From the NCBI RefSeq assembly GCF_000022205.1, contig NC_012029.1, positions 620,001 through 684,000 on the forward strand: DNA of 64,000 nucleotides. Direction: 5' to 3'. The DNA comes from Halorubrum lacusprofundi ATCC 49239 (GTDB lineage Archaea > Halobacteriota > Halobacteria > Halobacteriales > Haloferacaceae). The position numbers were made by a program, and so were the translations under genes. Below are positions 7,250-14,719 of the stretch, in pieces; within the stretch, counting starts at the first letter, position 1, and the number at the start of each line of letters is the position of its first letter. The notes below the pieces were generated by a model that had not been told where the DNA came from, ran no database searches, and saw only the letters and a list, made by a program, of their open reading frames with translations.

Positions 7250-7981
7250 CTACAGCAGGTCGTCGAAGTCCTTGTAGCGAGTGATGTCGACGCCATCGTC
7301 GGTGACGACGGCGACGTTGATCCCGTTGCCGGACGCGAGGTCGCGCTCGACGGCAGACTGGATCGCCTTCGCGGCCATGGTCTTGGCCTCGTCGACGGTC
7401 ACGTCGTCGTCGTACTCCTGTTCGAGGACACCAAGGGCGTACTGGGAGCCGGAGCCGGTGACGGTGTACTCCTCCTCAGTCGTGCCGCCGAGGGCGTCGA
7501 TGGAGTAGATGTGGGAGCCCTCGTCGTCGACGCCGCCGAGGATCGGCTGGACGATGTAGAACGCGCCCGATCGGAGGAGGTTCCCGGTGAGCGTCGACAG
7601 CGCCTCCATGGACATGTCCTTGCCGCGGCGGGTTTCGTAGAGGCTCGTCTCGGCTTTTAGCGTCGAGATGAGGTTCTGGGCGGCGGAGACCGAGCCGGCG
7701 ATGGTCAGCGCGCCGCGGGGATGGACCTCCTCGACCTTCTGGACGTCCTTCGAGGAGACCATGCCGCCGAGAGAGGCGCGCATGTCAGTCGCCATCACGA
7801 CGCCGTCGGCGGTCTTGATGCCGACCGTCGTGGTCCCGGTCTTCATTTCGCCCTCGCCGTCGGCCTGCGCCGCGCGGCGTTCGCTGTGTTCGAACTCGCC
7901 AATCTCCGGTCCGAAGACGGGCTGATCGCGGCCTAACTCCTCGGCCGGCCCGTCAGAGAGGTCGCCAGTCGGTGTTCGCAT
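7250..7981 (-). CDS. psmB: Proteasome subunit beta
   Basis: Catalytic subunit of the archaeal 20S proteasome. The 243-residue precursor has a propeptide of about 50 residues ending in KTG, followed by the nucleophilic threonine of TTTVGIKTADG. Downstream are the conserved ATDMRAS, GSVSAAQNL, LLRSGAFYIVQPILGGVD and GSGSQYALGVLE segments. The ATG at 7981 (MRTPTGD) is chosen over an upstream start because Haloferax PsmB starts alike and because a TATA box (8007-8013) sits 29 bases upstream. No alpha subunit gene is adjacent, which is usual in haloarchaea. Confidence 0.95.
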   Translation of the reverse strand: MRTPTGDLSDGPAEELGRDQPVFGPEIGEFEHSERRAAQADGEGEMKTGTTTVGIKTADGVVMATDMRASLGGMVSSKDVQKVEEVHPRGALTIAGSVSAAQNLISTLKAETSLYETRRGKDMSMEALSTLTGNLLRSGAFYIVQPILGGVDDEGSHIYSIDALGGTTEEEYTVTGSGSQYALGVLEQEYDDDVTVDEAKTMAAKAIQSAVERDLASGNGINVAVVTDDGVDITRYKDFDDLL

Positions 7982-8006
7982 TACGCCTTCGTTGGCCCGG
8001 CGCGCT

Positions 8007-8013
8007 GATAAAG
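8007..8013 (-). promoter_or_regulatory. TATA box for psmB
   Basis: CTTTATC on the minus strand, centred 29 bases from the psmB ATG; supports a leaderless message and the 7981 start. Confidence 0.6.
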
Positions 8014-8180
8014 GCAACCCTTCGGGGACCGACCGCCGGTTCCGACGGGTCTATGCGTTGGCGAATGCCTCGATGCCATTTATAAGCAACTAGGTACGCG
8101 AACCAACCGCGAACGCGGTGATTTTGGTCCGTCTCGACGCTTCCCTCCGGCTCACACGAATTGTTCGTCTCGGATCGCAT

Positions 8181-8368
8181 GTGGCGGCGCGTGCCCGTGA
8201 GCGGCCGTCAGGCCGCGAGCGGCACGCGCGAGGGAGCCCGCGGCCGCCTCTGGCGGCCGCGGCGAGGCTGGGGAGGCGTGAGGCTGCGGTTACCGTGCGG
8301 TGTGAGCCGTCCTCGGCGGCTGGGGCTTTGGAAGTGATCGCCTTCCCAGCACTGATCGCTTATAAACA
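8181..8368 (+). repeat. Intergenic repeat family, copy R2 (short form)
   Basis: Contains GGCGGCGCGTGCC, hairpin I (GCGGCC/GGCCGC around 8201-8216), GGCACGCGCGAGGGAG, hairpin II with a perfect 11-pair stem (8238-8248 with 8252-8262, loop TCT), CGAGGCTGGGGAGGCGTGAGG, and GGCTGGGGCTTTGGAAGTG followed by a CTTATAAAC box. The CTCAAAGGGGC block and most of the long stem are missing; only AGCCG/CGGCT remains. The preceding 8018-8180 holds the psmB promoter and a TTTATAA at 8079 but no gene. Confidence 0.85.
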
Positions 8369-8983: not shown

Positions 8984-9670
8984 GTGCAGAACGTTACGGA
9001 CCGAACGCGAAACCCGTTCGGGATGCGCCCGGACTGCGAGTCGTTCGTCCCCGGCTACGGCGACGCCAACGCCGACTTTCACGTAGTCGGCGACCACCCC
9101 GGCGTCCACGGCGGCGTCGACGCGGGCATCCCGTTCACCGGCGAACCGTGGTCGACCGCATTCCTCTCGGCGCTGGCCGAGGGAGGCCTGATCGGGGGGT
9201 TCGACGACTCGGCGGATGACCCAGCGACGATCGACGACTCGGCAGACGGCGCCGAGACCGCGGACCCGATCGTCGCTGACCGGACGTTCTTCTCGTACCT
9301 CCACATGTGCGTCCCCGACGGTGTCCCGGACGAGGCGTCGTACAACGACATGGAGCGGTTTTTCGACGCGGAGCTCCGGGCCATCGCGGCCCACGTCCTC
9401 CTCCCGGTCGGCGCCCGCGCGACCGACCACGTCCTCCAGCAGTACACATCGCGTGCGCACAAGACCGAGATCGACATGGACGCGCTCCACGCCGAGGAGC
9501 TGCTCGGGTCCGGGTGGCTCGTCCTCCCGATCAAAGACCCCGCGGAGTGGACCGAAGGCGACGGCGACCGACTCGCCGCGGCGCTCCGCGAGCTCCAATC
9601 GACGGACTTCCGTCGCGAGAGCGACCTCGGTCGCTTCATCGCGGGCAGTGAACCGTATCTCGTCAGGTGA
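8984..9670 (+). CDS. Uracil-DNA-glycosylase-family protein
   Basis: 228 residues. The motif block ADFHVVGDHPGVHGG followed by GIPFTGEPWS corresponds to the GEAPG and PFVG motifs of family 4/5-like uracil-DNA glycosylases, which remove uracil from DNA in base-excision repair. The usual N-terminal iron-sulphur cysteines are not evident (only C18, in MRPDCESFVPGYG, and C109). Active glycosylase function is therefore not assured; the usual catalytic residues of the GE[AP]PG motif are altered to GDHPG. A GTG start at 8984 is supported by a TATA box 27 bases upstream; the ATG at 9023 is the alternative. Confidence 0.7.
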   Translation: MQNVTDRTRNPFGMRPDCESFVPGYGDANADFHVVGDHPGVHGGVDAGIPFTGEPWSTAFLSALAEGGLIGGFDDSADDPATIDDSADGAETADPIVADRTFFSYLHMCVPDGVPDEASYNDMERFFDAELRAIAAHVLLPVGARATDHVLQQYTSRAHKTEIDMDALHAEELLGSGWLVLPIKDPAEWTEGDGDRLAAALRELQSTDFRRESDLGRFIAGSEPYLVR

Positions 9671-9873
9671 CGCGTCGCGAGACGCGGTTCGCGGTCGCTT
9701 ACTGTTAACGACCCGACCCGATCACCCCCTCGCTCCGATCCCTAGGTCGGATGCATGTGCGGTTCCGCTGCGGCTTTGAGGTTCCGATCGGATCGTTCGA
9801 GCGGAATTACCCACATTAGTGTCTGAACGTCACCCTCACACCGACCGCTGCTGTCATATTTGTCACTACTCCC

Positions 9874-9884
9874 CGAATTTTATA
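9874..9884 (+). promoter_or_regulatory. Promoter (BRE and TATA) of the candidate small RNA
   Basis: CGAATTTTATA: an archaeal BRE-like purine stretch joined to TTTTATA. The box centre at 9881 predicts initiation at about 9907-9908, where the first hairpin begins. Confidence 0.6.
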
Positions 9885-9907
9885 CTAGTCACCGCTATTC
9901 GACAGTA

Positions 9908-9991
9908 GACGCCCGATCGATCGGGCGTCGGCCGTAGGACTGGTACTCCATACGGTGGCTTGGTCAGCACCGGCCCTCACGGGCCGTTTTT
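9908..9991 (+). ncRNA. Candidate structured small RNA, about 84 nt
   Basis: No protein frame fits, but the segment has a promoter, dense secondary structure and a terminator. From 5' to 3': a perfect 22-base palindrome (9908-9929, GACGCCCGATC and its complement); a hairpin with arms CCGTAGGA and TCCATACGG (9932-9939 and 9947-9955, one bulged A); a competing stem CGGTG/CACCG (9953-9957 and 9968-9972); and a terminator hairpin CGGCCC/GGGCCG (9971-9986) followed by TTTTT. The overlapping stems could make alternative folds. It faces the 3' end of the asparagine-synthase-like gene and is antisense to any readthrough from it. I do not recognise it as a known RNA family. Confidence 0.55.
9971..9991 (+). 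terminator. Intrinsic-type terminator of the small RNA
   Basis: Six-pair GC stem (9971-9976 with 9981-9986), four-base loop TCAC, then five T residues. The T run is only on the plus-strand side, so it serves rightward transcription. Confidence 0.6.
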
Positions 9992-10010
9992 CGCGCCGCT
10001 TGGTCCCCGC

Positions 10011-11180
10011 CTACTGCTCCGCCAGCAGCGCGTCGAGGTACTGCCCGACGTGGTCGTCCATGCGTCGCTTGAACCCCGCCCGCCGCGCGAGCCGGTCGAT
10101 CTCTCGCGAGACGTACGTGCCGTACTGGACCGCCTTCTTGTCGGCCGTCCGGACCGACTCCGGCACTCGATCGGTTGCCGCCCGCCGGAGCGCGACCTTG
10201 CGCTCGTCGTCGCTCGCGAGCAGTTCGCCCGGCAGCGCGAGCGCGGCCGCAACGAGCCGGTCGTCCAAGAGCGGCGCGACCGGCTCGACCCCGGCGGCGC
10301 GGAGCGCGAGCACGTCGCGATCGAGCTGTTCCGGAAGCGTCCGGACGGTCTCAGTCCGTGCGCCCCGCACCGTCTCCGCTGCGACGCGGTCGTCGCCGGC
10401 GGGGTTGACGACCTTGCTGTAGCCACCGAACAGCTCGTCGGCGCCCTGTCCCACCGCAAGTCGATCGATACCGTCCGTCGCGGCCGCCTCCGCCGCGAGA
10501 TACAGCGGGACCGCGATCGCGACGTCCATCGGATTGCGCCGTCCGGTCGCCGCGGCGACCGCTCCGACTGCGCGCACGAGGTCGTCGTGAGTGATCTCGA
10601 CGACTCGGAGATCAAGTTCCATCGCCGTGGCGGCCTCGCGAGCGGCCTCAATGTCGTGACAGCCCTCGAAGCCGGCGACGTAACACGGCGCGTCCGGGAC
10701 CGCGGCAGCGACGACTCCGGAGTCGATGCCGCCGGAGAAGGCGACCGCGAGGTCGTTTCTGTTCGCCTCCGTTTTGATCTCGCCGAGCACAGCGCCGAGT
10801 GCCTCGTCGACCGCGGCCTGTCCGGACTCTGCGTCGACCGGCTCCTCGTCCGGGAGCGACCAGACGCGCTCGGCCCCCGCACTCGACGCGACGGTCCCGG
10901 CTGGAACGGGTTCCGGGTCGTCGAGGTCGGTCCGATCGAAGCTCCAGATACCGGAGTCAGTAGGATCACCCCCAGACGCCGGATCCGCGCCGCCCCGCTC
11001 GACGAACAGTGGCTCGCGGCCGAGGACGTCACGAACAAGTACCGGCCCCTCGCGGTTCGGGGGATCGCGGAGGAGTCCGGCGAAGCCGCGCCCGCCGGGG
11101 AGGGGGTCGCCGCCGCGGAGGGCGTCGCAGATGCGATCGGGTGACGCGCCTCGCAGATCGGAGGAGGAAGGGGTCGTCAT
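10011..11180 (-). CDS. Asparagine-synthase-like protein without a glutaminase nucleophile
   Basis: 389 residues. The C-terminal half is an asparagine synthetase-type ATP pyrophosphatase domain: the PP-loop SGGIDSG, then YVAGFEG, NPMDVAIAVPLYLAA and GQGADELFGGYSKV. The N-terminal 130 residues keep only part of the class II amidotransferase fold (LLRDPPNREGPVLVRDVLGREPLF) and do not start with Met-Cys, so glutamine cannot be hydrolysed by the normal Cys2. It may use free ammonia or another donor, or act on another carboxylate. ATG 11180 starts 5 bases after the stop of the PHP gene, with which it forms an operon. Confidence 0.8.
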   Translation of the reverse strand: MTTPSSSDLRGASPDRICDALRGGDPLPGGRGFAGLLRDPPNREGPVLVRDVLGREPLFVERGGADPASGGDPTDSGIWSFDRTDLDDPEPVPAGTVASSAGAERVWSLPDEEPVDAESGQAAVDEALGAVLGEIKTEANRNDLAVAFSGGIDSGVVAAAVPDAPCYVAGFEGCHDIEAAREAATAMELDLRVVEITHDDLVRAVGAVAAATGRRNPMDVAIAVPLYLAAEAAATDGIDRLAVGQGADELFGGYSKVVNPAGDDRVAAETVRGARTETVRTLPEQLDRDVLALRAAGVEPVAPLLDDRLVAAALALPGELLASDDERKVALRRAATDRVPESVRTADKKAVQYGTYVSREIDRLARRAGFKRRMDDHVGQYLDALLAEQ

Positions 11181-11185
11181 CGCAG

Positions 11186-11869
11186 TCAGCGGAGCGCGTT
11201 CAGCGCGCGGAGCGCGCGGCGCTTGGCGCCGCCGCTGAACTGGCGGAGCGAGACGCGCCACGGGGTTCGTTTCCCGACGACGCTGGTTCGTCCGTCGGCG
11301 ATCCCGTTGAGGATCGCCTCGGCCGAACGGTCGTCGGCGCCGACCTCGGTTACGGCCTGTCCCACCATCTCCGAGATGTGGGCGTCGCTGCCGGCGGTCA
11401 TCGGAATCCGGTTCCGGATCGCGAACTTCTCGGCCTGCCGGTTCGATCGCCCGGTGAACAGCCGGGAGTTGTACACTTCGAGGGCGTCGGCGCTCGCCAA
11501 CTGTTCGTCGGTGATGTGAGCGGCGACGCCGTGGCGGGACTTCTGGAAGGGATGGGGAATGACCGCGATCCCGCCCTGGTCGCGGATCCGATCGAGCGTC
11601 TCGTCATACGGGAGCCCGCTCTCGACGCGCTCGCTGATGCCGAACGCGAGGATGTGGCCGGCCGCGCTCGTCACCTCCATGCCAACGATGCCGACGAGCC
11701 CGTAGTCGGGGGCCTTCTCGGCCGCCTCGATGCTGGCGTCGATCTCGTCGTGGTCCGTAACGGCGAGCGCGTCCAGTCCGACCGCCGCCGCCTGCTCCAA
11801 GAGGAGGTCGACCGGATCGCGCCCGTCGTAGGACAGCGCGGAATGCGTGTGCAGCTCGACCGATAACAC
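11186..11869 (-). CDS. PHP-domain metal-dependent phosphoesterase
   Basis: 227 residues from GTG 11869 (a TTG at 11896 is also open). All PHP motifs are present: HTHSALSYDG, TDHDEID, GMEV, PHPFQ and GSDAH, which bind a trinuclear metal centre. Stand-alone PHP proteins of this length are phosphoesterases acting on small phosphorylated substrates or nucleotides; the substrate here is unknown. The GTG is preferred because the sequence just after it (LSVELHTHS) is the usual N-terminus of haloarchaeal members. It precedes the asparagine-synthase-like gene by 5 bases. Confidence 0.85.
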   Translation of the reverse strand: MLSVELHTHSALSYDGRDPVDLLLEQAAAVGLDALAVTDHDEIDASIEAAEKAPDYGLVGIVGMEVTSAAGHILAFGISERVESGLPYDETLDRIRDQGGIAVIPHPFQKSRHGVAAHITDEQLASADALEVYNSRLFTGRSNRQAEKFAIRNRIPMTAGSDAHISEMVGQAVTEVGADDRSAEAILNGIADGRTSVVGKRTPWRVSLRQFSGGAKRRALRALNALR

Positions 11870-11974: not shown

Positions 11975-12335
11975 GTGCGGTGGCGCGTGCCTGCGAGTGG
12001 CCGAAAGGCCACGAGGAGCACGCGCGAGGGAGTCGGTCGTCCGGAGCGAAGCGACGGGCGACCGACGAGGCTGGGGAGGCGTGAGGCTGTGCGGTGCGGC
12101 GGGCGGGACTCAAAGGGAAGTCGCCGGCGGCTCTGCCGCCGGCTGCCAGAGGCGCGAAGCGCCTCGCTGCCACGAGGACGAAGGCGCGGGAGGTAAGGAC
12201 CGCAAGAAGCGAGCATCGTGAGCGACTGAGGACCGAAGCGACCGCACCGAGTCCTCGTGGCTGGGGCTTTGGAGGTGTTCACCACGGATTCGCAATCAAC
12301 TATTTATATGCGAGCGGCTGAGGCTTTACGAGCAG
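11975..12335 (+). repeat. Intergenic repeat family, copy R3
   Basis: Blocks in order: TGCGGTGGCGCGTGCC, hairpin I with a GAAA loop (GTGGCC/GGCCAC, 11997-12012), GCACGCGCGAGGGAG, hairpin II (12032-12043 with 12055-12066, one T-G pair), CGAGGCTGGGGAGGCGTGAGG, GGGACTCAAAGGG, two further perfect hairpins (GCCGGCGGC/GCCGCCGGC near 12123-12143, and GAGGCGC/GCGCCTC near 12149-12165), the long stem of 11 pairs (12169-12179 with 12251-12261), and TGGGGCTTTGGAGGTGTTCACC with a TTTATATG box and a partial second tail unit. The rest of the 11870-12409 gap holds only a possible PHP promoter. Confidence 0.88.
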
Positions 12336-14331: not shown

Positions 14332-14719
14332 GTGTCTCTCCCACGCACTCGGTAATCGACGACCTACGTAAACCCTCGTGTCCTGTTCCGTCAGCCTCCC
14401 GTCTCCGCCCGCGTCTCGTCTCCGCCCGTGACTCCGTTCCTCGATCTCCGTATCCATCCGAGCGCCCCACAAGAACACGCTTAAGAACCCCGACGACGAC
14501 CCCTCACACGGGAACAGCACAGCTGCAGATCCGACGCGCCGGGGCCTCTTCGCCCACGGCTTGGGAATGTAGCAGTGCGCCGACGCCTCCGGCGTCGCGG
14601 TCGGACCGTCCGCTCACGCGGGTTGTCCGGTCGGACTGCTCGATCCGCGAGCCGTCCGTCAGCCGCGTCGCGCGGAGTCGCGGTCACGTTGCGGTTGTGC
14701 CGTTCCAATCAGATACACA
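14332..14719. other. Divergent promoter region between nhaC-type gene and rps15
   Basis: 388 bases. On the minus strand, GTTTACG (about 14367-14373) and CTTAAG (about 14480) are possible NhaC TATA boxes. Between 14575 and 14700 lie several GC hairpins (for example GACGCC/GGCGTC at 14582-14598), which may form a leader upstream of rps15. I see no separate gene. Confidence 0.45.

Follow-up and report, generated by a model that had tools for sequence, protein, structure and literature searches.

We propose that positions 9908-9991 on the forward strand of the window (the whole stretch of 64,000 nucleotides of Halorubrum lacusprofundi ATCC 49239 that was analyzed) contain the gene for a trans-acting small RNA (sRNA) that would find its partners by base pairing through an exposed loop and an unpaired tail, with the 3'-UTR of carA as one target in Halorubrum and with other partners as well, a reading to which we assign a probability of about 0.6. 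The RNA would be an independently transcribed intergenic species, ~84 nt long in H. lacusprofundi, in which a 5' hairpin would stabilize the molecule, a central hairpin would present the loop CUGGURC, the tail CUUGGUCAG would be exposed, and a terminator hairpin would come last. The proposal of a new sRNA gene at this place, equipped with a promoter and a terminator-like hairpin of its own, had been made from the letters of the window alone, and the comparative data support it well. The elements named in that original prediction, namely the BRE/TATA box CGAATTTTATA, a palindrome, a second stem and CGGCCC/GGGCCG-TTTTT, are all found in the sequence where it had put them.

A homology search, which had been suggested along with the prediction as a check on it, finds the element by BLAST in 51 of 52 Halorubrum genomes, with essentially one copy in each, and further homologues occur throughout the family. 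The whole conserved gene, upstream element included, spans 9856-9991 (+) of the window, and the sRNA itself is taken to run from the predicted start site to the end of the T-run, both ends being predicted. The BRE/TATA box lies at 9874-9884 (+), and TTTTATA is present in all 51 of the aligned Halorubrum rows. From the start of TTTTATA to the first base of stem I there are 30 nt in 48 of these 51 loci and 29 nt in the other three, and the bases separating the box from the stem vary freely, a combination of fixed spacing and free intervening bases that, on sequence grounds, is what a promoter followed by a start site and an RNA would look like. Further upstream, the element ATATTTGTC (9856-9864, +), conserved as ATATTTGNC in the Halorubrum alignment, lies exactly 22 nt before TTTTATA in 51/51 loci, and a similar, ATATTGGC-like element is found 19-21 nt upstream of the TATA box in 35 of 42 loci of other genera (loci L086, L087 and L112-L151). 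Standing as it does at a fixed distance before the TATA box, it is possibly the site of a regulator. The locus thus appears to have the own promoter and independent gene that characterize trans-acting intergenic sRNAs of haloarchaea.

Folding of positions 9900-9995 gives three hairpins at −42.3 kcal/mol with a z-score of −2.1 against dinucleotide shuffles, a modest value that, taken alone, would be unconvincing, and we judge the locus to be real because it is conserved rather than because of its folding energy. Besides the promoter, the conserved parts of the Halorubrum alignment are stem I, AGGACTGGTACTCC, CTTGGTCAG and the terminator hairpin. Stem I is the 5' hairpin GACGCCCG/CGGGCGTC at 9908-9929 (+), a perfect 22-base palindrome (GACGCCCGATCGATCGGGCGTC) in which 97% of the cells are paired across 42 Halorubrum sequences, and the terminator hairpin, CGGCCC-TCAC-GGGCCG-TTTTT at 9971-9991 (+), has 95% of its cells paired. 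Both scarcely vary within the genus, and stem I is almost without covariation because it is nearly invariant. In other genera the 5' hairpin usually has a different sequence, and the terminator T-run is absent from a few relatives.

Covariation, the second check suggested with the prediction, is found in stem II, which occupies 9932-9955 (+) as CCGTA/TACGG plus GGA/TCC with the arms CCGTAGGA and TCCATACGG at 9932-9939 and 9947-9955. Within Halorubrum this stem shows UA/CG changes in the register CCGYA/TRCGG, and across 46 diverse cores there are both-sided changes at four of the eight pairs (UA/CG, CG/UA, GC/AU and GC/AU), amounting to 36 cells compared with 14.6 in shuffles. The covariation score is 0.229 versus 0.127 in shuffles, with 0/500 shuffles as high and slid controls lower; kinship inflates such scores, though the slid controls keep the relatedness of the sequences. 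These compensatory changes support a predicted central hairpin with the loop CUGGURC, and it is through stem II that the secondary structure appears both conserved and covarying, stem I and the terminator being paired but nearly invariant.

The least variable parts of the 46 cores are the loop, CURGURC, and the tail, GGCUUGGUCAG. In the window the loop CTGGTAC (CUGGUAC, hereafter seed 1) lies at 9940-9946 (+) and is invariant in Halorubrum, with CURGUGC or close variants outside the genus, while the single-stranded tail CTTGGTCAG (seed 2) lies at 9959-9967 (+) and, as (G)GCUUGGUCAG, is nearly invariant in Halorubrum and in most of the family. The original prediction described an RNA with almost no unpaired space, but its most conserved parts turn out to be a 7-nt loop that is exposed and a tail of 9-14 nt that is unpaired. 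It also included a competing CGGTG/CACCG stem that would allow the RNA to switch between folds. That stem is present in the sequence of the window but is not conserved across Halorubrum: the third stem, 9953-9957 with 9968-9972, has 67% of its cells paired versus 66% in shuffles, and 36 of 42 sequences cannot form its fourth pair. Since it pairs hardly better than shuffles, we reject the switch; conserved, mutually exclusive stems of the kind that mark riboswitch-like elements are not seen here, and switching folds are left without support.

The locus also falls outside the known RNA families and classes that were compared. Rfam release 15 gives no match at the gathering score at the locus or at the homologue loci L086 and L118, and at a relaxed E-value it returns only a chance microRNA model upstream of the locus. 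Elsewhere in the window, positions 14508-14578 (+) match the S15-Halobacteria ribosomal protein leader (RF03143) with 70.9 bits. Between 9908 and 9994 there is no ACA box as in H/ACA guide RNAs and neither RUGAUGA nor CUGA as in C/D guide RNAs. A guide or pairing RNA for rRNA or tRNA was considered and rejected because the complementarity of the loop and tail to the rRNA operon and tRNAs of the same genome is at most 8 nt, which is the level of chance.

The sRNA spans ~20 genera. A first covariance model built on Halorubrum recovered only two homologues outside the genus, missing most of them because few candidates were scored, and these two gave the two-motif pattern GACTRGTRCTN{6,26}CTYGGTCRR, which matched 97 of 391 genomes of the class, nearly all belonging to the family of Halorubrum, and gave few matches among controls. 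Matches outside the family are few and none has the CAGTGGCTTGGTCAG form, although more diverged members there are possible. With a second model, the Haloferax genomes of the sample that had been missed were recovered, together with eight genomes of one genus, a single genome of another and three partial cases. Homologues are thereby found in ~63 of the 89 sampled Haloferacaceae genomes other than Halorubrum (three of them partial), including Haloferax, Halobellus, Halogeometricum, Halogranum, Halohasta, Halonotius, Haloprofundus, Haloparvum, Halobium, Salinigranum, Natronocalculus and others. In three relatives (G060, G328 and G331; loci L343-L345) stem II and the loop are kept and the tail is changed (CAATTGATCATG-like), which provides a natural test of the role of the tail. 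Additional matches to GGACTGGTACTCC were rejected as second sRNA copies, as they are mostly coding, for example for Asp-Trp-Tyr-Ser in L092-L111. By eye only, two GC-rich intergenic stretches of the window, ~8180-8345 and 11980-12285, are similar to each other and have phrases such as GAGGCTGGGGAGGCGTGAGGCTG and CTGGGGCTTTGGA in common.

A candidate target comes from five Halorubrum genomes in which the loop motif has a second match. These matches lie between carA and surE, as the two flanking genes were identified, and on the opposite strand to them, and the mRNA strand therefore carries the complement. We thus read them as complementary sites rather than as second copies of the sRNA. When the regions upstream of surE and 17 further Halorubrum loci were aligned (47 Halorubrum gaps in all), a block of ~35 nt, (G/A)CUGACC(A/G)-n-GGAGUACCA-n-CGGCCGACGCC, emerged from a gap that is otherwise variable, and CUGACC, GGAGUACCA and CGGCCGACGCC are complementary, in antiparallel order, to the tail, the loop and the upstream arm of the sRNA, respectively. 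The strict block is present in 36 of the 47 gaps, and another four have a looser form (40/47); it begins 16-137 nt past the carA stop. Because a conserved TTTTC box adjoins surE, just before the gene, we infer that the block belongs to the 3'-UTR of carA and precedes a surE that is probably leaderless. Duplex energies taken over the whole gap proved noisy, and windowed ones were used in their place; by this calculation, which leaves internal folding out, the best sRNA window overlaps the block in 40/47 gaps, and relative to shuffled gaps the mean z for the full set of 47 is −3.3. In a family-wide search with a two-seed pattern, no place other than the carA-surE gap recurs broadly from one Halorubrum genome to the next. 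In H. lacusprofundi itself the site is degenerate (z −0.3), and Haloferax and most other genera lack it. As the sRNA has a much wider distribution than the carA site, other targets or partners must exist, and carA is not the sole partner of an RNA that is family-wide. Two further candidates were rejected as targets: in Haloferax, the site CTGACCAAATCGAGCACCA falls within an ORF of 302 aa on the opposite strand, and a Halogranum/Halobellus site is part of a coding sequence.

The carA site also appears to change together with the sRNA. In two genomes of other genera, G385 (L300) and G345 (L299), the sRNA loop is UGGUGC and the sequence after carA is CTGACC-n-GCACCA, matching the changed loop, with 0/200 shuffles as good in each case; the block 3' of carA in G122 (L302) is one mismatch off. 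The base beside the tail seed has a Watson-Crick partner in the mRNA in 26 of 36 genomes, or 30 if G-U pairs are included, against a permutation mean of 14.9, but the permutation p overstates this match because only about three clade-level events lie behind it. On the carA tree these are concordances of G-C, A-U and C-G, set against six mismatching genomes, and G048 and G021 mark a possible path from A-U through G-U to G-C. Judged on these comparisons, co-change of the sRNA and the carA site is suggestive.

The alternative that survives best, though we regard it as unlikely, is that of a structured RNA that binds a protein, with the loop and tail forming a recognition site (for example, for an Lsm-type protein or a translation factor), so that the RNA would titrate or guide this protein and the carA block would be a side effect or a sponge. 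Such a role would suit the conservation of the loop and tail in genera that have no carA site, and a general target has not been found. However, it leaves unexplained why 40 of 47 carA 3' regions contain the complement of three parts of the RNA in antiparallel order, and why the change from GUACCA to GCACCA follows that of the loop. Less probable again is that the carA-surE block is a degenerate paralogue of the sRNA encoded antisense to these genes, and not a target at all. The opposite strand of the block does resemble the sRNA over 30-35 nt, but a TATA-like box is found 30-90 nt upstream on the antisense strand in 0/39 blocks, the bases for stem II and for closure of the loop are missing in most genomes, and in two other genera the differences in the block parallel those in the loop.

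An element acting in cis is marginally more doubtful still. It would be either the 3'-UTR or terminator of the upstream gene, which encodes a member of the UDG superfamily (8984-9670, +; Pfam PF03167, E 3e-7), or an antisense regulator of the convergent asparagine-synthase-like gene (10011-11261, −; Pfam PF00733, E 2e-32). In nearly all loci of the family the UDG-like gene is the direct upstream neighbor, in the same orientation, with the sRNA ~150-460 nt downstream of it, but the sRNA has a conserved promoter of its own, and in G138 it is located away from the UDG gene. As the original prediction had it, the RNA faces the asparagine-synthase-like gene in H. lacusprofundi, and it does so in its Halorubrum relatives, but in other genera this gene is replaced by others. 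Since the downstream gene differs among genera, the asparagine-synthase-like gene is neither a conserved partner nor the explanation of the RNA. Also in this part of the window is a gene for the archaeal proteasome beta subunit (7250-8017, −; TIGR03634). Finally, chance hairpins in GC-rich intergenic DNA, for which the modest folding energy might speak, carry a negligible probability, having already been refuted by conservation and covariation across the family.

Hundreds of intergenic sRNAs have been catalogued in Haloferax volcanii (PMC3956466, PMC4983044, PMC6490895), and the RNA described here is of the same class. Haloarchaeal sRNAs are reported to be numerous, but their conservation is described as poor and few of their targets are known (PMC3956466, PMC6560208), and 22 of 27 catalogued sRNAs are confined to H. 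volcanii (PMC3956466), in contrast to the ~20 genera found here. The closest parallel is sRNA132 of H. volcanii, likewise a haloarchaeal sRNA that is intergenic and monocistronic, has a BRE/TATA promoter of its own and is predicted to act on a 3'-UTR by pairing, but it is reported only in Haloferax and has a phosphate ABC transporter as its target; a conserved two-seed site like the present one is not described in the text available (PMC6560208). Also comparable is an archaeal sRNA of Methanosarcina mazei, sRNA162, which is reported to use two domains to target mRNAs, although both the organism and the targets are unrelated (PMC3510493). A search of the literature by sequence and by neighboring gene did not identify the Haloferax homologue, which may already be in the H. 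volcanii catalogues under a coordinate name. With no curated family and no description in the searchable literature, we consider this sRNA to be a probable new member of the known class of haloarchaeal sRNAs, and its candidate carA target to be the interesting part.

For the trans-acting sRNA that we favor, the tail, the loop and the strand preceding the loop would pair in antiparallel fashion with CUGACC, GGAGUACCA and CGGCCGACGCC in the carA 3'-UTR, and the consequence for the carA mRNA would be a change, in either direction, of its stability or 3'-end formation. Action at a 3'-UTR would fit what is known of haloarchaea because sRNA132 is predicted to pair with a 3'-UTR (PMC6560208) and because most H. 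volcanii transcripts are leaderless (PMC4983044). Tentatively, and at just short of even odds, we extend this to a previously unnamed sRNA family that is ancestral to the Haloferacaceae and uses its loop and tail seeds jointly, with a co-evolving site in the carA 3'-UTR of Halorubrum and of a few genomes from other genera, where it would control the supply of carbamoyl phosphate for arginine and pyrimidines, carA encoding the small subunit of the glutamine-hydrolyzing carbamoyl-phosphate synthase. If so, this would be an archaeal pair of an sRNA and a 3'-UTR that can be traced through comparative genomics. A structured sRNA of ~20 genera, with two exposed, nearly invariant stretches and a conserved complementary site behind one gene, offers a testable case of how such RNAs find mRNAs, and with archaeal mRNAs being mostly leaderless, the access of the sRNA to them would be through the 3'-UTR.
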